17,774 nucleotides of DNA. Source: Acidobacteriaceae bacterium. Lineage in GTDB: Bacteria; Acidobacteriota; Terriglobia; Terriglobales; Acidobacteriaceae. Of this stretch, positions 985 to 9,404 are shown piece by piece. The stretch's first letter is position 1; each line of letters opens with the position of its first letter. The stretch spans positions 1-17,774 of the forward strand of contig DAHUZD010000043.1 in NCBI GenBank assembly GCA_027306745.1. The letters are read 5' to 3'. A program made the translations under genes and the position numbers. The notes beneath the pieces were generated by a model that searched no databases, was not told the DNA's origin, and was given only the letters and a program-made list of their open reading frames with translations.

Positions 985-1006
985 CCATGTGATGCGCATC
1001 ACATGG
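985..1006. promoter_or_regulatory. 22-bp perfect palindrome, CRP/FNR-family operator candidate
   Basis: The half-site CCATGTGATGC is followed directly by its exact reverse complement. The core TGTGATGCGCATCACA matches the E. coli CRP consensus layout TGTGA-N6-TCACA at every conserved position. It lies 130 bp before the porin-cytochrome start codon and just ahead of a possible -10 box at 1022-1027, a geometry compatible with activation from about -40. Known: many CRP/FNR-superfamily proteins bind such sites. Inference: which family member acts here (cAMP-, redox- or gas-sensing) cannot be told. Confidence 0.65.
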
Positions 1007-1021
1007 GTTGGTGACCCCTGC

Positions 1022-1027
1022 GATAGT
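1022..1027 (+). promoter_or_regulatory. Possible -10 element of the electron-transfer operon
   Basis: GATAGT resembles TATAAT in 4 of 6 positions and would place transcription start near 1034, putting the palindrome centre (995.5) at about -38 to -39. No good -35 hexamer is present, as expected at an activator-dependent promoter. Weak evidence by itself. Confidence 0.25.
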
Positions 1028-1135
1028 AGACTGGCCTTTGTACTTTGCATGATGAAAAAGAACGGGGCGGATGCAGGTCACATGGCTGCGCCTCCAGCCT
1101 CGAAACTTGTGATTTCAAAGGCCAAGGAGTTGAAT

Positions 1136-2455
1136 ATGCGGAAAATCATGCAATGGATCGCGGTGCTGGCGGTAGTGCTGAGCGCCACCAACAGTTATGC
1201 GTTGCCCAGCTATACACGCCAGACCGGACTAACCTGCAATGTCTGCCACTACACGCCACCAGAGCTCACCCCTTTCGGGCGCATCTTCAAACTCAGTGGC
1301 TACACACTGATTCAAAGCGCAAAGCAGAACACCATCGGCAGCGGCCATGACCTGCGGCTGTTGAAAGTGCTACCGCTCTCGGTCGCTTTTTCCGTCTCGG
1401 ATACGGAGTTGCAGGCCAAGCAGCCGCAGACGCAAAACGGAACCGCGGCCTTCCCACAGGATTTGAGCCTATACTTAGCCGGGGAGTTGGCGCCACATCT
1501 CGGCTCTTTCTTTGAAGTGGCCTACACGCACGCGAATGATCACTTCGGCATGGGTATGGCGGATTTGCGCTACGCCAACAGCACCAAGCTCTTCGGCAAG
1601 GATTTCCGCTACGGGGCGACGATCAACAATCAGCCGACGATTGAGGACGTTTGGAACAGCACGCCCGCCTATGGTTTTCCGTGGATTGCTTCCGCCGTTA
1701 GCGTTCCGCAGATTGCGACGCCGGTCATTTTCGGCGCACTGTCGCAAGATGTCGTTGGCCTGGGTGGATATGGCATGTTCGCCAACCACCTCTACGGCGA
1801 TGTGACGCTGTACCGCTCGGAGCATGCCGGAGGCGCGACGCCTGTGACGGGGACCGGCTACAACATCAACATCAGCGGCGCTGCCCCGTACTGGCGCGTG
1901 GCATGGCAGCAGAGCTTTGGAGACAACTATTTGGAGATTGGCTCCTACGGCATTGACGTCAACTCGTACCCAAACGCTGTCAGCGGGCCGGAAAACCGCT
2001 ACGTCGATCCCTCGTTCGACTTCAGCTATGAGCGGCCTTTTGGCTCGAATGCCCTGTCGGTGCATGGAACCTACATGCATGAAAAATCCAATCTGGGCGC
2101 AACCTTGGCAGCCGGGGGTGCAGCCTTCGCAGACCACCACTTGGACGAAGAGCGCTTTGACGCCACTTGGTATGTGCGCAGCAAGTTCTCCGGCACAGGC
2201 GCATTCTTCAACACCACTGGCAACACGGATGCCACGCTCTACGCGCCTGCCGCCGTCATGGGCAGCAACAATGGCAGCCCCAACACCACTGGCTACATCG
2301 CGCAGGGCGGCTACTGGCCGGTGCAGAATATCGACATCACCCTCGCCTATACCGGCTACACCAAATTCAACGGAGCCAGCACAAACTATGACGGCTCCGG
2401 ACGCAACGCCTCGGACAACAACACTGTCTACATTGCACTCTGGCTGCTTTTTTAG
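1136..2455 (+). CDS. Cyc2-like outer-membrane porin-cytochrome (single c-type haem fused to beta-barrel)
   Basis: The 439-residue product starts with a signal peptide (MRKIMQWIAVLAVVLSATNS, cleavage likely after SYA), followed at once by one haem c motif C34-NV-C37-H38 inside the pattern PSYTRQTG-x2-CxxCH-x3-PELTPFGR-x-FKLSGYT. This is the hallmark N-terminus of Cyc2-type fused cytochrome-porins. The rest has no further CxxCH, alternates polar and aromatic residues as in beta-strands, and ends in VYIALWLLF, with the terminal Phe typical of outer-membrane barrels. Length agrees with known Cyc2 proteins (about 400-490 aa). The start is set by AAGGAG 6 nt before ATG 1136; an upstream in-frame ATG at 989 lies inside the operator palindrome and would bury the signal peptide. 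First gene of the operon with Rieske and cytochrome b. Known Cyc2 proteins oxidise Fe(II), but this broad family has many untested members, so the substrate is open. Confidence 0.8.
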   Translation: MRKIMQWIAVLAVVLSATNSYALPSYTRQTGLTCNVCHYTPPELTPFGRIFKLSGYTLIQSAKQNTIGSGHDLRLLKVLPLSVAFSVSDTELQAKQPQTQNGTAAFPQDLSLYLAGELAPHLGSFFEVAYTHANDHFGMGMADLRYANSTKLFGKDFRYGATINNQPTIEDVWNSTPAYGFPWIASAVSVPQIATPVIFGALSQDVVGLGGYGMFANHLYGDVTLYRSEHAGGATPVTGTGYNINISGAAPYWRVAWQQSFGDNYLEIGSYGIDVNSYPNAVSGPENRYVDPSFDFSYERPFGSNALSVHGTYMHEKSNLGATLAAGGAAFADHHLDEERFDATWYVRSKFSGTGAFFNTTGNTDATLYAPAAVMGSNNGSPNTTGYIAQGGYWPVQNIDITLAYTGYTKFNGASTNYDGSGRNASDNNTVYIALWLLF

Positions 2456-2463
2456 GAGAAAAC

Positions 2464-3045
2464 ATGGAACCAATCCAACCGCAGGAAGAACGGGCAGCCG
2501 GAGGCAACTCCGGCCTGGCCTCCAACAAGGACGTACTGGTCATCAACCGGCGCTCGTTCTTCGCAGTCCTCATGGGCATTGGCACAGCGGGCATGGGAGC
2601 TTTACTCTCCGTGCCCGTGCTGCGCTACATTTTGTACCCGCTCTACGCCAAATCCAGCAAGAGCGGCTGGTCGGAGGTTGGCTCCATGGATGAGTTTGCC
2701 AACCTGACCCAGCCGATCCGCAAGACCATCGAGTTCAAACAACTCGACGGCTGGCGTGAAATCGACTCCGCACAATCGGTCTACGTCACCAAAGGCGCGG
2801 ATGGCCAGTTGGCCGTGCTCTCCTCCATCTGCCCCCACCTGGGATGCAGCGTCTCCTGGCAAACCACGCAAGGCGAGTTTATCTGCCCTTGCCACGGAGG
2901 ACGCTTCAACCCAAGCGGCGCGCACGTCTTTGGCCCGCCACCGCGCGGCATGGATCCGCTGCCCACCAAGGTTGCCAATGGCAAGCTGATGGTGCAGTTC
3001 CAGTACTTCCGCGAAAACGTTCCCAACCACGAAGTCCTGGGCTAG
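2464..3045 (+). CDS. Rieske 2Fe-2S protein of a cytochrome bc complex
   Basis: This 193-residue protein has a cytoplasmic tail, a twin-arginine-like motif NRRSFFAVL (residues 28-36), one hydrophobic anchor (about 32-60) and a periplasmic Rieske fold. The cluster motifs are C123-P-H125-LGC and C141-P-C143-H144; ligands would be C123, H125, C141 and H144, with C128-C143 as the stabilising disulfide. The proline loop FGPPPRGMDPL follows at about 156. It transfers electrons from quinol at the Qo site of cytochrome b to a c-type haem. The gene starts 8 nt after the porin-cytochrome stop, and its Shine-Dalgarno AGGAGA overlaps that stop codon (TAG), implying tight translational coupling. The cytochrome b fusion follows 51 nt downstream. 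Confidence 0.95.
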   Translation: MEPIQPQEERAAGGNSGLASNKDVLVINRRSFFAVLMGIGTAGMGALLSVPVLRYILYPLYAKSSKSGWSEVGSMDEFANLTQPIRKTIEFKQLDGWREIDSAQSVYVTKGADGQLAVLSSICPHLGCSVSWQTTQGEFICPCHGGRFNPSGAHVFGPPPRGMDPLPTKVANGKLMVQFQYFRENVPNHEVLG

Positions 3046-3096
3046 CGATCGCTGAGCGCACCATGCGCACGACTGAACCCTTGTGAGGATGCCGTA

Positions 3097-5724
3097 ATGA
3101 ATGCGAATGCACCGAAAAATAATCCCCAGCCCAAGGGCCTGCCCGCGCGGCTCTTCGGCTGGCTGGATCGCCGCACCGGCCTGCGCAACCTGATGCACGA
3201 ATCGCTCGATGAGCCAATTCCCGGCGGCGCACGCTGGGCCTACGTCTTCGGCTCTGGCCTGCTGTTCATCTTTATCTCGCAGGTGATCACCGGCCTGTGC
3301 CTGACGCTGTACTACGTTCCTTCGGCGGAGTCGGCACACACCAGCGTGGCCTACATCACCAAGCAGGTGGCCGCAGGAGCCTTTCTGCGCAGCCTGCACT
3401 ACTACGGCTCCAGCGCGATGATCATCGTGCTGGGCCTGCACTTTTTGCAGACATTTCTCTACGGCTCCTTCAAGGGTCGGCGCGAGTTGCTCTGGCTCTC
3501 GGGCGCGGTGCTCTCCCTGCTGGTGCTGGGTATGGGCTTCACCGGCTATCTGCTGCCGTGGGATCACAAGGCCTACTTCGCCACCGCCGTCGGCACCAAC
3601 ATCGCCGGGCAGGTGCCACTCATCGGTGAATGGCTGACGCGCCTGATGCGTGGCGGCGACACGCTGGGCACGCTGACCATCTCGCGCTTTTACGTTGCGC
3701 ACGTCTTTCTGATTCCCGGCATGATCTTCCTGTTCATCGCCGCGCACATCGCGCTCTTCCGCAAGGCTGGCCCGGCTGGCCCCATCGACGAGCACCCAAT
3801 CGAACCCAAGATGCAGCCGGAGGGCTTCTATCCCAAACAAGTTCTGATGGACATGGCCTTCGCACTGCTCTTGATGGTCGGCCTCGGCTTCCTCGCCTAT
3901 TTCCATCCTGTCGAGCTTGGCCCGATCGCCAACCCAGCCAACACCCAGTTCATTCCGCGCCCGGAGTGGTACTACCTGCCCATGTTCGAGTGGCTCAAAT
4001 TCTGGGAAGGCCCCAAGGTGCTCATTGGCATGGTGGCGATTCCCGGCACGCTGGCGCTACTCTTCTTCCTGCTGCCGTTTTTGGATCGCAAGCTGGAGCG
4101 CCGCCCCTGGCGCAGGCCCATTCCCCTGCTCGCCGTCACCATCGTTCTGGTCGGCACGCTATACCTCGGCGTGCGCAGCCGTCAGGACGACGCCCGCGAC
4201 CCGGCCATCGCCGCGCAGCTCGCACTGCAAGAACAGCAAGAGAAGCAATACAACGCCGCACCCTTCCATCCCTTCGTCGAATCCCCCGGCGGAACGGCTG
4301 CACCCGCACCCTCTGGCCCGGTGAATCCGATGGTGGCGCAAGGCCGCGGCGTCTTTGACAACAACGGCTGCTCCGGCTGCCACGGCGAAACCGGCATGGG
4401 AGGGCCTGTCGCACCTGGCTTGGCTGGCCTCACCACCAAATACACCGCCGACCAGATCACAGCCATGCTGCACACGCCCACCGCCAAGATGCGCGCCGGC
4501 GGCATGCCTGCCTTTGACCTCTCTACGCACGACATGTCGGCGCTGCTCAGCTATCTGGGCGTCATCGGCACCAGCGCGGCCAACGTGCCCGCCGCCTACA
4601 GCGTGGCTCAACCCAAGGCAGAAGCTCCACACGCAGCCGCACCGGCCTCCGCTGCCGCTGCACCCGCTGCCACGCCTGTACCCGATCCAGCCACGCTCGC
4701 CGCAGGCCAGCAATTTTTCCATCAACACTCCTGCTTCGTCTGCCATGGGCAGACAGGCGGTGGCAATCGACGCATTCCACCCATGTCGCAACTGATGGCC
4801 TCGGTGAATGACGCGCAACTGGAAGCACTGCTGCGCGCGCCCAGCGCCAAGATGCACGCCGGCGGCATGGGGCCGGTCAAGGCTACGCCTGCGGAGATGA
4901 CCGCGCTGCTCGCCTATCTACGCTCGCTGGCCCCGGCAGCAGCGGCCCCCGCTGCCACAACCGACGCGATCCCAACCGCAGGCACATCCGCCACACCAGA
5001 ACCGAATGCGCCCGCTGCATCGCCAGCTTCTGCGCCGATGCAGACACCCGCACCGGCACCGGCTTCACCCGCAGCGGCTGCCTCCACCCCGGTCGCACAA
5101 AACACACATGCCTCCGCCGGACGCTCGCTCTTCATCAACAACGGCTGCGCCGCCTGCCACGGACAGTACGCGCAGGGCACGGCCTTTGCGCCTTCGCTCG
5201 CTGGTGCCCCAGCCAAGCTGCCCAGCGGACAGTTCGCCACGCTGCTGCGCCATCCCACACAGAAAATGCGCGACGGCGGCATGCCCGCTTTCCCGCTGAG
5301 CGATACGGAGATGCAGCAGTTGGCTGCGTATCTGAATGGGCTGGGATCCATGCCAGCATCCATGGCCCCTGCGCAACCAAGAAACCACATGTCCGCTGCA
5401 ACCTCCGCATCTGCATCGTCGGCCAAGCCCGCGCCAGTGCATCGGCGCGTGCTCACGGCTGAGGAGCTTCGCGGCAAGGATGTCTTTGAGCACAACTCCT
5501 GCGCCAGTTGCCACGGCGTGGATGGCCTCAACGGCACCGTCGCCGCGCCGCCACTGGCGGGCACGGCCTCGGAGCTGCCCGCAGCCATGATCGCCAACCT
5601 GCTCCGCCATCACAGCAAGCCCATGCAACAGGGCGGCATGCCGTTGACCAACTTCAACGCGAGCGACATGCAGGCCATCGTCGCCTACATCCGTTCCCTG
5701 CCAGACACACCGCCCGCACAGTAA
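3097..5724 (+). CDS. Cytochrome b (b6/subunit IV type) fused to four tandem cytochrome c domains
   Basis: The 875-residue membrane protein combines a complete quinol-oxidising cytochrome b with a periplasmic tetra-haem tail. Residues about 45-360 form seven predicted membrane helices (4+3, the b6 plus subunit IV plan). Haem b ligands are H101/H115 (13 residues between) and H202/H217 (14 between, the b6f spacing). The Qo motif P289-EWY is intact. With seven helices the C-terminus should face the periplasm. There follow four haem c motifs: C425-SG-CH, C546-FV-CH, C684-AA-CH and C802-AS-CH, each in a domain of about 85 residues ending in a related block (KM-x-AGGMP...MxALLxYL) with a likely axial Met. 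Ala/Pro-rich linkers (about 495-530, 606-675, 735-780) separate them. No separate cytochrome c1 or f gene is present, so the tail probably takes that role. GAGG lies 9 nt before the ATG. Third gene of the operon. Confidence 0.92.
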   Translation: MNANAPKNNPQPKGLPARLFGWLDRRTGLRNLMHESLDEPIPGGARWAYVFGSGLLFIFISQVITGLCLTLYYVPSAESAHTSVAYITKQVAAGAFLRSLHYYGSSAMIIVLGLHFLQTFLYGSFKGRRELLWLSGAVLSLLVLGMGFTGYLLPWDHKAYFATAVGTNIAGQVPLIGEWLTRLMRGGDTLGTLTISRFYVAHVFLIPGMIFLFIAAHIALFRKAGPAGPIDEHPIEPKMQPEGFYPKQVLMDMAFALLLMVGLGFLAYFHPVELGPIANPANTQFIPRPEWYYLPMFEWLKFWEGPKVLIGMVAIPGTLALLFFLLPFLDRKLERRPWRRPIPLLAVTIVLVGTLYLGVRSRQDDARDPAIAAQLALQEQQEKQYNAAPFHPFVESPGGTAAPAPSGPVNPMVAQGRGVFDNNGCSGCHGETGMGGPVAPGLAGLTTKYTADQITAMLHTPTAKMRAGGMPAFDLSTHDMSALLSYLGVIGTSAANVPAAYSVAQPKAEAPHAAAPASAAAAPAATPVPDPATLAAGQQFFHQHSCFVCHGQTGGGNRRIPPMSQLMASVNDAQLEALLRAPSAKMHAGGMGPVKATPAEMTALLAYLRSLAPAAAAPAATTDAIPTAGTSATPEPNAPAASPASAPMQTPAPAPASPAAAASTPVAQNTHASAGRSLFINNGCAACHGQYAQGTAFAPSLAGAPAKLPSGQFATLLRHPTQKMRDGGMPAFPLSDTEMQQLAAYLNGLGSMPASMAPAQPRNHMSAATSASASSAKPAPVHRRVLTAEELRGKDVFEHNSCASCHGVDGLNGTVAAPPLAGTASELPAAMIANLLRHHSKPMQQGGMPLTNFNASDMQAIVAYIRSLPDTPPAQ

Positions 5725-5760
5725 CGCTGCTTGGGTGGGCTTCTGCTTCGCCGCGTTCTG

Positions 5761-5805
5761 CGTGATGGCTGCCGGCTCTCTATGCAGCCATCGCGCCTGT
5801 GGCGC
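5761..5805 (+). terminator. Stem-loops after the cytochrome operon, possible terminator
   Basis: GATGGCTGC (5764-5772) pairs perfectly with GCAGCCATC (5784-5792), and a second short hairpin GCGCC-TGT-GGCGC (5793-5805) abuts it. No U-tract follows, so termination, if any, would not be the classic intrinsic type. It sits between the stop at 5724 and the yebC promoter candidate. Confidence 0.4.
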
Positions 5806-5806
5806 A

Positions 5807-5815
5807 TGATAAAAT
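5807..5815 (+). promoter_or_regulatory. Extended -10 promoter candidate for yebC
   Basis: TGATAAAAT fits an extended -10 (TGn followed by TAAAAT, 5 of 6 to consensus). Transcription would begin near 5822, giving a leader of about 66 nt to the yebC start codon. No convincing -35 is seen, which extended -10 promoters can lack. Confidence 0.45.
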
Positions 5816-5887
5816 CTGGCTTTGTGCGCGGCGGCCAGCAGCATGGCTCGGCAACGCGCATGGATCTTCACATTCGAGGTTCTCACC

Positions 5888-6634
5888 ATGTCCGGCCACT
5901 CCAAATGGGCCACAATTAAGCACAAAAAGGGCGCGCTCGACGCCAAGCGCGGCAAGATCTTTACCCGCCTAATTAAGGAATTGACGATCGCAGCCCGCGC
6001 CGGCGGCGACCCCGATGGCAATCCACGCCTGCGCACGGCCATCGCCGCGGCCACGGCGGAGAACATGCCAGCCGACAACATCAAGCGTGCCATTCAGCGC
6101 GGCACCGGCGAAATCGAAGGCGTCAATTATGAAGAGATCACCTTCGAAGGCTACGGCCCCGGCGGTGTTGCGGTCATCGTGGAAGTGACCACGGACAATC
6201 GCAACCGCGCGGTGAGCGAAGTGCGCCATGCCTTTTCCAAGAACGGCGGCAACCTCGGCGAGTCCAACTCCGTTTCGTGGATGTTCTCCAAAAAGGGCCT
6301 GATCGCCGTGCCCAAGGCCGATGCCGACGAGGACAAGCTGATGGGCAGCGCGCTCGAAGCTGGTGCCGATGACATCCGCGACGAGGACGACACGTGGGAG
6401 GTGTTGACAGCACCGGCCGCATTTGAAGCTGTTTCGGAAGCCATCAAGAGCGCAGGCATCAAGCCCAGCGTAGCCGAGGTGACCATGATCGCCTCTACCT
6501 ACACGAAGCTCGAAGGCCCTGCCGTCGGCCAGATGGTTCGTCTACTGGAAGCACTGGAAGACCACGATGACGTGCAAAATGTCTACTCCAACTTTGATGT
6601 GGACGCCAAGCAACTGGAAGAAGTGGCGGGCTAG
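5888..6634 (+). CDS. yebC: YebC/TACO1-family protein
   Basis: The 248-residue product begins [15 protein letters not shown], the near-invariant YebC N-terminus, and carries the conserved blocks [57 protein letters not shown] and SVSWMF. Length is normal for the family (about 240-250). The start at 5888 rather than 5822 is chosen from this N-terminus; GAGG lies about 9 nt upstream. The family was long annotated as DNA-binding transcriptional regulators (PmpR), and more recent work on YebC/TACO1 proteins points to a role in translation, relieving ribosome stalling on proline-rich sequences. It appears to have its own promoter and is followed by a strong inverted repeat. Confidence 0.95.
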
Positions 6635-6647
6635 GCGCACCGTTCGA

Positions 6648-6669
6648 CGCGCCGGAGCACTCCGGCGCG
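6648..6669 (+). terminator. GC-rich inverted repeat after yebC
   Basis: CGCGCCGGAG and CTCCGGCGCG are exact reverse complements separated by only CA, a 22-nt near-perfect inverted repeat starting 14 nt after the yebC stop. It lacks a T-tract, so it may be a weak terminator or an mRNA 3'-end stabiliser. Confidence 0.5.
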
Positions 6670-6695
6670 CACTCCCAAACCGGCGAGGCATTCTT

Positions 6696-7400
6696 TTGAA
6701 GCATTCCGCAGTTCTCTCCGCTTGTGCGGCGCTGTTGTGCTGCATCCCGACTGCCGCCTCCGCACAAACACAGGCTGCCAAGCTCGTGCAGCCCTCGCAA
6801 TCCGCAGCGGAGATCAACGTGCCGAAACTGCTGCATCCCGACCCGTGGGAGCAGGGCGTGTTTTTCGCCGGTGGCCTCAGCACTGCCAATGACAATCTCA
6901 ACTACCGCTTCTTGAACGCAGGCGTGCGCTTCGGCAAGGTGCTGACTGGCGCGGCTGGGCCGGGTCTGCTGCGCGGCCAATTTGAATACGCCGTTGAGCT
7001 GATCCCCTACTGGCAAGCCTTCACTCCCAAAGAAGTCGTCACCATCACTACTGGCAATCCGCCGCAGACCGAGCAGTTCCACACTGGCGGCAACTTCAAT
7101 GGCGTCAGCATCACGCCAATCATTCTGCGCTGGAACCTGGTGCACTCGCGCCGCGTGTTGCCGTGGGTGCAGGGCGCGGGCGGCCTCATCTGGACCAATC
7201 ACAAGTTTCCGCCGATCGCCACCAGTGTCTGGAATTTCTCGCCTCAATTTGGCATCGGCATGCACTACTTTCTGCATCCCAACCGTGCGCTCACCTTCAG
7301 CGCCAACGCCGTGCACATCTCCAGCGCCAGCCTGGGCGACAAAAACCCCGGCGTCAACGCCAGCGTGCAATTTCAAATTGGATATACGTGGTGGAAGTAG
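6696..7400 (+). CDS. PagL-like lipid A 3-O-deacylase (acyloxyacyl hydrolase) family outer-membrane protein
   Basis: The 234-residue product has a signal peptide (KHSAVLSACAALLCCIPTAASA, cleavage before QTQ) and a small beta-barrel pattern ending in FQIGYTWWK. Near the C-terminus, A-V-H207-I-S209-S-A-S-L-G-D-K-NPG-V-N matches the PagL signature, where the catalytic His and Ser are spaced H-x-S. Known members remove the 3-O acyl chain of lipid A at the outer membrane. The Glu of the PagL triad is not evident at the expected spacing (Asn221 instead), so activity is uncertain. The start is inferred as TTG 6696: it directly precedes the signal peptide and has GAGG 7 nt upstream. An upstream ATG at 6567 overlaps yebC and gives an Arg-rich nonsense extension. 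ftcD overlaps its end. Confidence 0.72.
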   Translation: MKHSAVLSACAALLCCIPTAASAQTQAAKLVQPSQSAAEINVPKLLHPDPWEQGVFFAGGLSTANDNLNYRFLNAGVRFGKVLTGAAGPGLLRGQFEYAVELIPYWQAFTPKEVVTITTGNPPQTEQFHTGGNFNGVSITPIILRWNLVHSRRVLPWVQGAGGLIWTNHKFPPIATSVWNFSPQFGIGMHYFLHPNRALTFSANAVHISSASLGDKNPGVNASVQFQIGYTWWK

Positions 7401-8362
7401 ATACGCTCAACTCGCAGCATGCAGCACAGACGGCTGCACCACCCGCTGGCCCACTGGTGGAGTGCGTGCCCAATTTTTCTGAGGGCGCGGATCCAGAGGC
7501 CGTGCGCGCCATCGTACGCGCCATGCAGGTGGAGGGCGTCTCGCTGCTGGACTGGTCGCTGGACGATGACCATCATCGCTCCGTGGTCACACTGGCCGGT
7601 GAGCCGCAGGCCGTGCTGGAGGCTGCCGTGCGCGGCGTGGGCAAGGCTGCGGAGTTGATTGATCTGACCCGCCAGCAGGGCGCGCATCCGCGCATTGGCG
7701 CAGCCGACGTGCTGCCGTTTGTGCCGCTGCAAGGCATCACCCTGCCTCAGGCGGTGCTGCTGGCCCATCGCGCGGGGCAGGAGATTTGGAAGCGCTATCG
7801 CATCCCGGTTTATTTTTATGAGGCCGCCGCTACGCGCCCAGACCGCTCGCTGCTGGAAGATGTTCGGCGCGGACAGTTTGAGGGCTTGCGCCGTGAGTCC
7901 GTCAACAACCCGGCGCGCAGGCCGGACGTGGGTGGCCCATCCCTGCACCCCACCGCGGGAGCCTGCGCCGTGGGTGCACGGCAACTTTTAATCGCGTGCA
8001 ACGTTTATCTGAATACAAAGGATGTGGCCGTGGCCCGCGCCGTGGCCCGGGAGGTGCGCGCATCCAGCGGCGGACTGGCCGGCGTAAAAGCATTGGGCCT
8101 TTCCGTGGATAGCCGCGCACAGGTGTCGATGAACATTACCGATTTTCGCCGCACACCCATCAGCCGCGTCTACGCCGCCGTGGCCCAAGCCGCGCAGCAC
8201 GCAGGCGCGGAGCCAGAGGAAGTCGAGCTAATCGGCTTGATACCAGAAGCTGCGCTGGAGCCGGGCAGCGACTGGATGCGCCGGGTGCGCGGCGTGCCGC
8301 TGCAAGAGCGGACGATCGAGCGTAAACTGAAGTCGCCGCTGGACTGGCCGCAACAGGGCTGA
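7391..8362 (+). CDS. ftcD: Glutamate formimidoyltransferase
   Basis: The 323-residue product carries the family blocks PLVECVPNFSEG (residues 21-32), DDDHHRSVVTLAG, GAHPRIGAADVLPFVP (97-112), PVYFYEAAATR and RRPDVGGPSLHPTAG. It transfers the formimino group of N-formimidoyl-glutamate (histidine degradation) to tetrahydrofolate; the related reaction with formyl groups is also known. Size fits the stand-alone transferase, without the cyclodeaminase half found in animals. No ATG precedes the conserved N-terminus in frame; GTG 7391 (GGAT 7 nt upstream) or GTG 7388 is the likely start, overlapping the PagL-like gene's stop by about 10 nt, which suggests coupled translation. No other hut genes are in the window. 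Confidence 0.93.
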   Translation: MEVDTLNSQHAAQTAAPPAGPLVECVPNFSEGADPEAVRAIVRAMQVEGVSLLDWSLDDDHHRSVVTLAGEPQAVLEAAVRGVGKAAELIDLTRQQGAHPRIGAADVLPFVPLQGITLPQAVLLAHRAGQEIWKRYRIPVYFYEAAATRPDRSLLEDVRRGQFEGLRRESVNNPARRPDVGGPSLHPTAGACAVGARQLLIACNVYLNTKDVAVARAVAREVRASSGGLAGVKALGLSVDSRAQVSMNITDFRRTPISRVYAAVAQAAQHAGAEPEEVELIGLIPEAALEPGSDWMRRVRGVPLQERTIERKLKSPLDWPQQG

Positions 8363-8438
8363 AGCCCCGGCCACAACGGCCCGCGCAGGCATTGCGCCGC
8401 AAGATTCATTTTGAAAGATGGACTGAAGGAGATTCCCT

Positions 8439-9404
8439 GTGAAATTTGCATCGCGTACTTTCCCCCTGTGTCTGGCCGCTGCTGCGCTCGTCTTTGCCTG
8501 CGCAGTGCCACTGCTGGCCTCGCCGCTGGCCACAGAGTCCCAGGCCGCGCTGCCCTATGACGTGCAGCAGTTGATCGTGGTTGATTATCAGCAGATGATC
8601 AACTCCAACGTCGCCATGCAACTGCAAAAGCGCGTACTGCCGCCCGACCTCAAGCGACTGCAAGATGCCCTGCAGACCTCTGGCATTGACGTGGCCCAAA
8701 GCGTGGATCAACTGGCATTCGCCTCCTACCGCATGCCGAAGTCTGAAGGCGTCAGCATCGTTGGCATCGCCAGCGGGCAGTTCCCCACCACGGACATACT
8801 GGCCAACTTCAAAAAGAAAAAGATCAAGGGCACCAAGGTGCGTAACTCCATGATCTATCCAATGGGCAGCAGCGGCATGTCCGTTGTCTTTCCGAATCAG
8901 ACAACGATGATCTTCGGCTCGCTGGAATCCGTGAAGGCCTCGCTGGACGCGCGCGACAGCATCTCGCCCAGTTTTTTGACCAACAATGAAATGCAGAATT
9001 TGATTCCGCCCACGCAGAATGAGGCCGTCTGGAGCATTCTCGACAGCAAGGGCACACGCACCATGATGCAGTCGGTCATGGGCGGCGCAGCGGCGCAGGT
9101 GGCAGACTTCAGCGCGGTGCAGAAACGTCTGCTCGGCTCACGCTACACCATGGATTTTGAGCATGGCGTCAAATTCAATCTGGATGTGATGACGCCGGAC
9201 GTGATCTCTGCGGCCACCATGTCTTCCGTGCTCAGCGCAGCAGCGCTCTACAAAAAGATGGGCGCAACGCCGGCGGAGAAAACCGCCATTGACGACACCA
9301 ACATCACCTCGACCGGCAGCACGCTGGAAGTTCATGTCTCGGCGTCAGACAACGACTTCGCTACGCTGCTGCAATCATCGCTCTTTCAGTCGGTGGTGCA
9401 CTAA
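8439..9404 (+). CDS. Secreted protein of unknown function
   Basis: The 321-residue product has a clear signal peptide (hydrophobic LCLAAAALVFACAVPLLA, likely cleavage near ASPLA) and no further membrane segment. I do not recognise a family with confidence. The mature part alternates short beta-like stretches with helices (VQQLIVVDYQQMI, KSEGVSIVGIASGQF, MSVVFPNQTTMIFGSLESVKASLD), a pattern reminiscent of DUF3352-like periplasmic proteins, but that is a guess. The GTG start at 8439 is supported by AAGGAG 8 nt upstream and by the signal peptide following at once. It lies 76 nt after ftcD, so it may be co-transcribed, and is last in the plus-strand group, ahead of a bidirectional stem-loop. Confidence 0.8.
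   Translation: MKFASRTFPLCLAAAALVFACAVPLLASPLATESQAALPYDVQQLIVVDYQQMINSNVAMQLQKRVLPPDLKRLQDALQTSGIDVAQSVDQLAFASYRMPKSEGVSIVGIASGQFPTTDILANFKKKKIKGTKVRNSMIYPMGSSGMSVVFPNQTTMIFGSLESVKASLDARDSISPSFLTNNEMQNLIPPTQNEAVWSILDSKGTRTMMQSVMGGAAAQVADFSAVQKRLLGSRYTMDFEHGVKFNLDVMTPDVISAATMSSVLSAAALYKKMGATPAEKTAIDDTNITSTGSTLEVHVSASDNDFATLLQSSLFQSVVH

Follow-up and report, generated by a model that had tools for sequence, protein, structure and literature searches.

A Cyc2-like porin-cytochrome encoded with a Rieske/cytochrome b complex in Acidobacteriaceae: a candidate electron conduit between the outer membrane and the quinone pool

Beyond a few model organisms, little is known of the route that electrons take through the periplasm between cytochrome-porins of the outer membrane and the quinone pool. 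We analysed a 17,774-nucleotide (nt) stretch from an Acidobacteriaceae bacterium (contig DAHUZD010000043.1, hereafter the window), in which three genes on the + strand, within positions 1136-5724, encode a porin-cytochrome (pcc), a Rieske iron-sulphur protein and a cytochrome b fused to four c-type cytochrome domains. Pcc resembles Cyc2 of Acidithiobacillus ferrooxidans and Mariprofundus ferrooxydans PV-1, and Cyt572 of Leptospirillum, which likewise have a signal-like start, one N-terminal CxxCH, a PxL motif and a 16-strand porin. The gene context differs: in the rus operon, cyc2 stands together with cyc1, cup, cox genes and rus (PMC10654088, in excerpt), whereas pcc adjoins Rieske and cytochrome b genes. 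Acidithiobacillus likewise has bc1 complexes (petI, petII), which act in a chain with Cyc2 (PMC8790237, in excerpt). Unlike in the window cassette, their genes lie apart from the cyc2 operon, and both soluble cytochromes and a cupredoxin stand between the two (PMC10654088 and PMC8790237, in excerpt).

Other systems share single elements. In the Geobacter extHIJKLMNOPQS cluster, ExtI is a porin, ExtO a Rieske protein and ExtP a cytochrome b; haem in ExtI goes unmentioned in the excerpt of the source. The Geobacter c cytochromes are separate multihaem proteins, whereas in the window the haem tail is part of cytochrome b, which scores 186 bits against the ExtP model NF040969, below the curated cut-off of 290. 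PioAB and MtoAB have a separate decahaem cytochrome beside the porin, an arrangement that the window cassette does not match; a CxxCH scan of the called window frames found none outside pcc and the cytochrome b tail. Compared with the anammox complexes Kustd1480-1485 and Kuste4569-4574, the cassette lacks the NAD(P) and octahaem parts and a separate subunit IV. Its fixed porin-cytochrome plus bc composition and its tethered haem tail set it apart from systems of the Cyc2, Ext, Pio/Mto and anammox kinds. A literature search covering titles and abstract openings of open-licence PMC papers returned no account of this cassette.

We consider it fairly probable that the products of this operon form a dedicated path by which electrons pass both membranes, between pcc and the Rieske/cytochrome b complex. 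The conduit itself, unlike its direction, appears well supported by conservation and gene anatomy. An outer-membrane-to-quinone conduit had been proposed in a first-pass annotation of the window, and this view is borne out in part, through the Cyc2-like barrel, the linkage of the three genes and the pairing of the same porin family with a second bc complex.

An apparent operon and its conservation

The three genes are arranged as follows.

1136 to 2455, + strand: pcc, Cyc2-like porin-cytochrome, 439 residues
2464 to 3045, + strand: Rieske iron-sulphur protein, 193 residues
3097 to 5724, + strand: cytochrome b fused to four c-type cytochrome domains, 875 residues

Although the open frame of pcc opens at GTG 989, its likely start is ATG 1136, preceded by AAGGAG at 1124-1129 (read by eye). 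Only 8 nt separate the pcc stop from the Rieske gene, whose Shine-Dalgarno sequence AGGAG overlaps the pcc TAG; 51 nt separate Rieske from cytochrome b, with GAGGA ahead of the cytochrome b ATG. The three genes look like an operon. The 8-nt gap, the overlap of stop and ribosome binding site and the four c domains had been described in the first-pass annotation and stand as described, whereas its start at 985 lies about 150 nt upstream of the likely one. A 332-residue frame runs antisense to pcc (1475-2473, - strand), with homologous antisense frames in many loci; it is probably an effect of codon use.

The pairing was surveyed in 250 same-family genomes, adjacency being defined as within 4 kilobases (kb) on the same strand. 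A pcc match (E 1e-60 or better) was found in 61 genomes and a cytochrome b match in 58. All 33 full-length pcc of at least 57% identity adjoined a cytochrome b of at least 70% identity and, conversely, 33 of the 35 cytochromes b of at least 70% had pcc alongside (Fisher p 3e-39, computed on genomes with kinship uncorrected); a partial pcc in G444 (58%) was assigned to neither identity group. Thus, the three genes stay together, a point that the first-pass annotation had listed for checking, and pcc homologues do co-occur with bc genes, contrary to one outcome that it had named as refuting. The cassette is also present in G363, of the same genus as the window's genome.

A protein search with pcc returned 2451 homologues at E 0.001 or better from 8000 candidates, 120 of them among the matches listed. 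Among 74 named pcc loci, Rieske lay within 150 nt in 39, within 1500 nt in one and in another order in one; 16 adjoined a second complex and 17 had no bc found. These loci are titled Acidobacteria, Acidobacteriota, Acidobacteriaceae, Terriglobia or single genera, Acidipila rosea DSM 103428 included; the genera we take to be members of those groups. In the phylum at large, 9 genomes out of 297 (that of the window among them) had a full-length pcc relative, and a further 65 matched weakly, mostly across the haem segment. Around the three genes, and antisense frames aside, none of the families listed recurs beyond one clade (7 loci). At one locus (L156 of G440, 4098-9047) the order is Rieske, cytochrome b with five c domains, then pcc downstream.

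The more distant pcc genes adjoin another cluster. It encodes cytochrome b6 and subunit IV, a Rieske protein, a cupredoxin, a pyridine-nucleotide oxidoreductase that has 4Fe-4S domains, and two c cytochromes, one octahaem and one monohaem. Such clusters were found at L036, L085, L094, L101, L104 and others, most with the cupredoxin and the NAD(P) oxidoreductase, and two genomes (G007 and G249) contain both cassette types. One porin-cytochrome family is therefore tied to two Rieske/cytochrome b complexes. The cytochrome b of L036 reached 267 of the 290 bits set for NF040969, still below the cut-off. The gene set (Rieske, b6, subunit IV, multihaem c, NAD(P) oxidoreductase) is like that of the anammox complexes, which have been proposed as makers of NAD(P)H (PMC12954380, in excerpt). 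A surface-to-NAD(P)H module in Acidobacteriota is possible.

These counts bear on a rival account, in which the genes form a plain aerobic bc branch whose four-c tail would feed an oxidase, and pcc would be merely a co-transcribed porin or iron-handling protein. Complexes of the bc type that carry fused or additional c haems and feed oxidases are known, and 14 of 22 cytochromes b of 59-69% identity had no pcc nearby, contig ends included. This account is nevertheless improbable in view of the unbroken linkage of the 33 full-length close pcc genes, the finding that pcc relatives also adjoin another type of bc complex, the Cyc2 signature described below and two loci, L120 and L148, that combine absence of pcc with short tails.

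The porin-cytochrome and its likeness to Cyc2

Three parts were distinguished in pcc.

1136 to 1201, + strand: signal-peptide-like N-terminus, residues 1-22, ending ...NSYA ahead of LPSY (judged by eye)
1199 to 1291, + strand: haem segment ALPSYTRQT-GLT-CNVCH-YTP-PEL, a Cyc2-type signature with two substitutions
1376 to 2452, + strand: 16-stranded beta barrel, mature residues 59-417, with C-terminal Phe (predicted structure)

The sole CxxCH of pcc is CNVCH (residues 34-38, bases 1235-1249). In Cyc2 the signature AXPXFAR[Q/K][T/Y] stands just ahead of CXXCH, with PXL shortly after (PMC8406198, in excerpt). The window protein reads ALPSYTRQT, with F to Y and A to T exchanges. Because the strict signature is off at these two positions, we call pcc Cyc2-like rather than Cyc2. 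The strict signature was found in 38 of 39 named same-cassette orthologues, the remaining one (L072) reading AVASFARQT, and PxL follows CxxCH after three residues, with identical spacing in 74 of 74 loci.

An AlphaFold2 model computed from a 74-row alignment gave a mean predicted local distance difference test score (pLDDT) of 82.1 and a predicted template modelling score (pTM) of 0.83. It has 16 long strands by our own count from the strand list, and it superposes on porins that served as templates for Cyc2. In length and predicted fold, pcc thus lies within the range given for Cyc2 (at least 365 residues, a porin barrel of about 16 strands). This likeness was judged from the published motif, length and fold. 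No match to pcc was found in Pfam or NCBIfam up to E = 1; among solved structures, the sequence gave a single weak match (E 0.96) and the 74-row profile none up to E = 0.1. The first-pass annotation had read a barrel with an N-terminal haem motif from the letters, and had named structure prediction as a check and the lack of a predicted barrel as refuting; the predicted barrel, the CxxCH and the signature in orthologues agree with it. Elsewhere in the window's genome (G000), a short frame near the end of contig 358 (L042, 7073-7453) provides another gene start that bears the strict Cyc2 signature.

Comparison of the window with locus L046 revealed unequal divergence along the operon. The pcc genes (1136-2455 versus 2174-3490) are 69% identical with a synonymous divergence (dS) of 1.15, while the neighbouring Rieske is 96% identical (dS 0.21); for cytochrome b, tail included, the figure is 94% (dS 0.29). 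An excess of pcc divergence, defined as a synonymous difference above 0.3 and more than 1.8 times that of cytochrome b, was observed in 6 of 32 pairs with cytochrome b identity of at least 91%, pairs that overlap in membership. Such a pattern suggests that pcc alleles have been replaced while the rest of the operon stayed stable, as would be expected for a surface-exposed protein.

The haem tail and the monohaem cytochrome c gene

The Rieske protein carries the ligand motifs CxHxGC and CxCHG (CPHLGC...CPCHGGRF) and matches the Pfam Rieske model with 44.1 bits (cut-off 20.3). In the cytochrome b fusion, Pfam recognises Cytochrome_B, Cytochrom_B_C and four Cytochrom_C stretches. The cytochrome b has the histidine pairs H101/H115 and H202/H217, which we take to be haem ligands, and PEWYYLP as its PEWY motif; its closest solved relatives are cytochrome b6 chains. 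The tail is made up as follows.

4309 to 4566, + strand: c domain 1, CxxCH at residue 425, counterpart of the single c domain in short-tailed relatives
4690 to 4932, + strand: c domain 2, preceded by a Pro/Ala-rich linker, CxxCH at residue 546
5086 to 5337, + strand: c domain 3, preceded by a Pro/Ala-rich linker, CxxCH at residue 684
5449 to 5706, + strand: c domain 4, CxxCH at residue 802

Within the window's protein, the tail domains are 35-45% identical to one another and to c domain 1. Capture of a monohaem cytochrome c as the source of the extra domains was rejected, since these score best against c domain 1 and the rest of the tail.

Tails were compared among complete cytochrome b frames of at least 55% identity, after removal of four duplicate loci by hand; contig-cut frames and L079, whose frame is broken in the match, were left out. 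The monohaem c gene was looked for solely between pcc and Rieske, or up to 1200 nt before Rieske where pcc was not upstream. Where the tail has three to five c domains, pcc was adjacent in 35 of 35 distinct loci (34 upstream, one downstream), and a monohaem c gene stood between pcc and Rieske in none of them. Where it has one or two, a monohaem c gene precedes Rieske in 17 of 21 distinct loci, and seven of the 21 have pcc nearby. Of the four exceptions, L082 and L155 are cut by contig ends; the other two are L120 and L148. These last two, with tails of two domains and one respectively, are without pcc and group with L076 within the extended clade (support 100/100). At L148, a frame with 10 CxxCH lies next to Rieske on the opposite strand.

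Judged from these gene orders, the operon's own shuttle gene is gone from the long-tailed cassettes. In the conduit that we favour, the tethered c domains would have taken over from this monohaem c shuttle, the tail would pass electrons between the inner-membrane Rieske protein and the pcc haem, and that haem would exchange electrons with something outside the cell. A more specific version would have the flexible four-haem tail itself reach the outer membrane and dock to the haem porin, so that the quinone pool is linked to the outside with neither a soluble carrier nor a multihaem filament. The tail would have grown as a single c domain was copied several times over during the loss of the operon shuttle gene, and in sister lineages the same porin family would feed or drain the NAD(P)H-linked Rieske/b6 complex. 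We put forward this version tentatively, as a doubtful possibility.

Several observations weigh against the conduit or its tethered form. Of the pcc below 57% identity, only 8 of 38 adjoin a cytochrome b of the window's kind and 30 do not, second-type complexes being uncounted, and six of the 17 named loci where no bc was found have at least 8 kb on both sides. Since 8 of the 22 cytochromes b of 59-69% identity have pcc nearby, the pairing does not require a long tail. The departure of the window pcc from the strict Cyc2 signature counts here as well, as does the mostly low confidence of mature residues 1-57, including the haem segment, in the model. The tail changed state twice (two domains counted as extended), so that independent events are few, and an independent-pairs test of tail against pcc had too few changes to reach significance. 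Finally, with the monohaem c of L144 as query, relatives were found in 24 of 25 genomes. Among cassette carriers, 14 of 15 have such a relative (26-46% identical) away from the cassette, and at the cassette loci L056 and L076 a related gene lies a few kb away. In five genomes with the order pcc, monohaem c, Rieske, the match was at least 60% in four (one being the query's own) and 40% in G312.

Genome-wide loss of the soluble shuttle was therefore not borne out, and a soluble carrier may still operate in the cell, because related monohaem c genes persist. This persistence slightly lowers our confidence in the conduit, and in its docking version, and slightly raises that in the ordinary aerobic bc branch. 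The span of the periplasm by tethered haems, suggested in the first-pass annotation, gains some support from the inverse relation between tail length and the operon's monohaem c gene, and is weakened by the related genes elsewhere.

Respiratory setting and direction of flow

The respiratory setting was surveyed in 20 same-family genomes, 15 of them with the cassette; the window's genome, in which the window is contig 242, measures 1.94 Mb and is 71.6% complete. COX1 was found in 20 of 20. The first-pass annotation had rightly stated that the window holds no terminal oxidase, and the three COX1 matches of its genome lie on other contigs. RuBisCO was detected in 2 of 20 genomes and 1 of 15 carriers. 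NrfD was detected in 19 of 20; a search of the window's genome, at the completeness given, found none. In 12 of 15 carriers NrfD lies 5.6-6.0 kb from COX1 on one strand (distances taken by hand), and in G285 this cluster reads as an alternative complex III (ACIII)-caa3 operon with ActD. The cassette cytochrome b is the sole PF00033 match in G000, G363, G285 and G333, and the other carriers have two to four. The idea that the cassette bc is the cell's only complex III was rejected for the relatives, on the strength of ActD in G285 and of NrfD near COX1. Oxygen respiration has its own complex III there, and the cassette is therefore an extra route in them.

Inward flow is one way of using the conduit. 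Pcc would oxidise external Fe(II), and electrons would pass along the tail to a caa3 or cbb3 oxidase, a part running in reverse through bc to menaquinone. The Cyc2 proteins put to test do oxidise Fe(II) (PMC8406198, in excerpt), which argues for this direction and against the outward one; the Acidithiobacillus scheme (PMC8790237, in excerpt) and the presence of COX1 throughout agree with it. As a whole we regard this scheme as unlikely. On its side, too, many of the metagenome-assembled genome names among the named loci presumably come from mine-drainage surveys. In the cassette, however, no oxidase, cupredoxin or other conserved neighbour was seen, and RuBisCO is nearly absent from the carriers. 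Menaquinone is the quinone of the phylum and would steepen the uphill step.

The Rieske residues also speak against inward flow. At two tuning positions the window protein has Gly and Phe, without the potential-raising Ser and Tyr, whose loss costs about 130 and 65 mV in yeast mutants (PMC12954380, in excerpt). Among 43 type 1 rows (one genome present twice), 23 have Gly/Phe, 19 Ser/Phe and one Ser/Tyr. This suggests a low-potential, menaquinone-type centre in the window. The assignment from residues alone is uncertain, because the Kustd1480 Rieske, with Ser and Phe, was measured at +335 mV (PMC12954380, in excerpt).

In the outward version of the conduit, a normal Q cycle would oxidise menaquinol, and the high-potential electrons would exit through pcc to an acceptor such as Fe(III), while separate ACIII-caa3 oxygen respiration would run alongside. 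Acidophilic Acidobacteriaceae reduce Fe(III). Cyc2 has been proposed as an Fe(III) reductase in Acidithiobacillus (PMC8790237, in excerpt). Outward flow fits the NrfD/COX1 cluster, RuBisCO and Rieske data at least as well as inward flow does, and we lean to it because of the Rieske residues, the scarcity of RuBisCO and the lack of an oxidase in the cassette. Taking direction by itself, we infer that outward flow carries about half of the weight, inward flow a clearly smaller but substantial share, and neither direction a small remainder.

Overall, one conserved cassette holds the partners on both sides of the periplasm, with the presumed shuttle covalently attached, and the module is present in a culture-collection strain, Acidipila rosea DSM 103428. 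If the conduit reading is true, a widespread soil phylum would have here a defined way of exchanging electrons with the outside of the cell.

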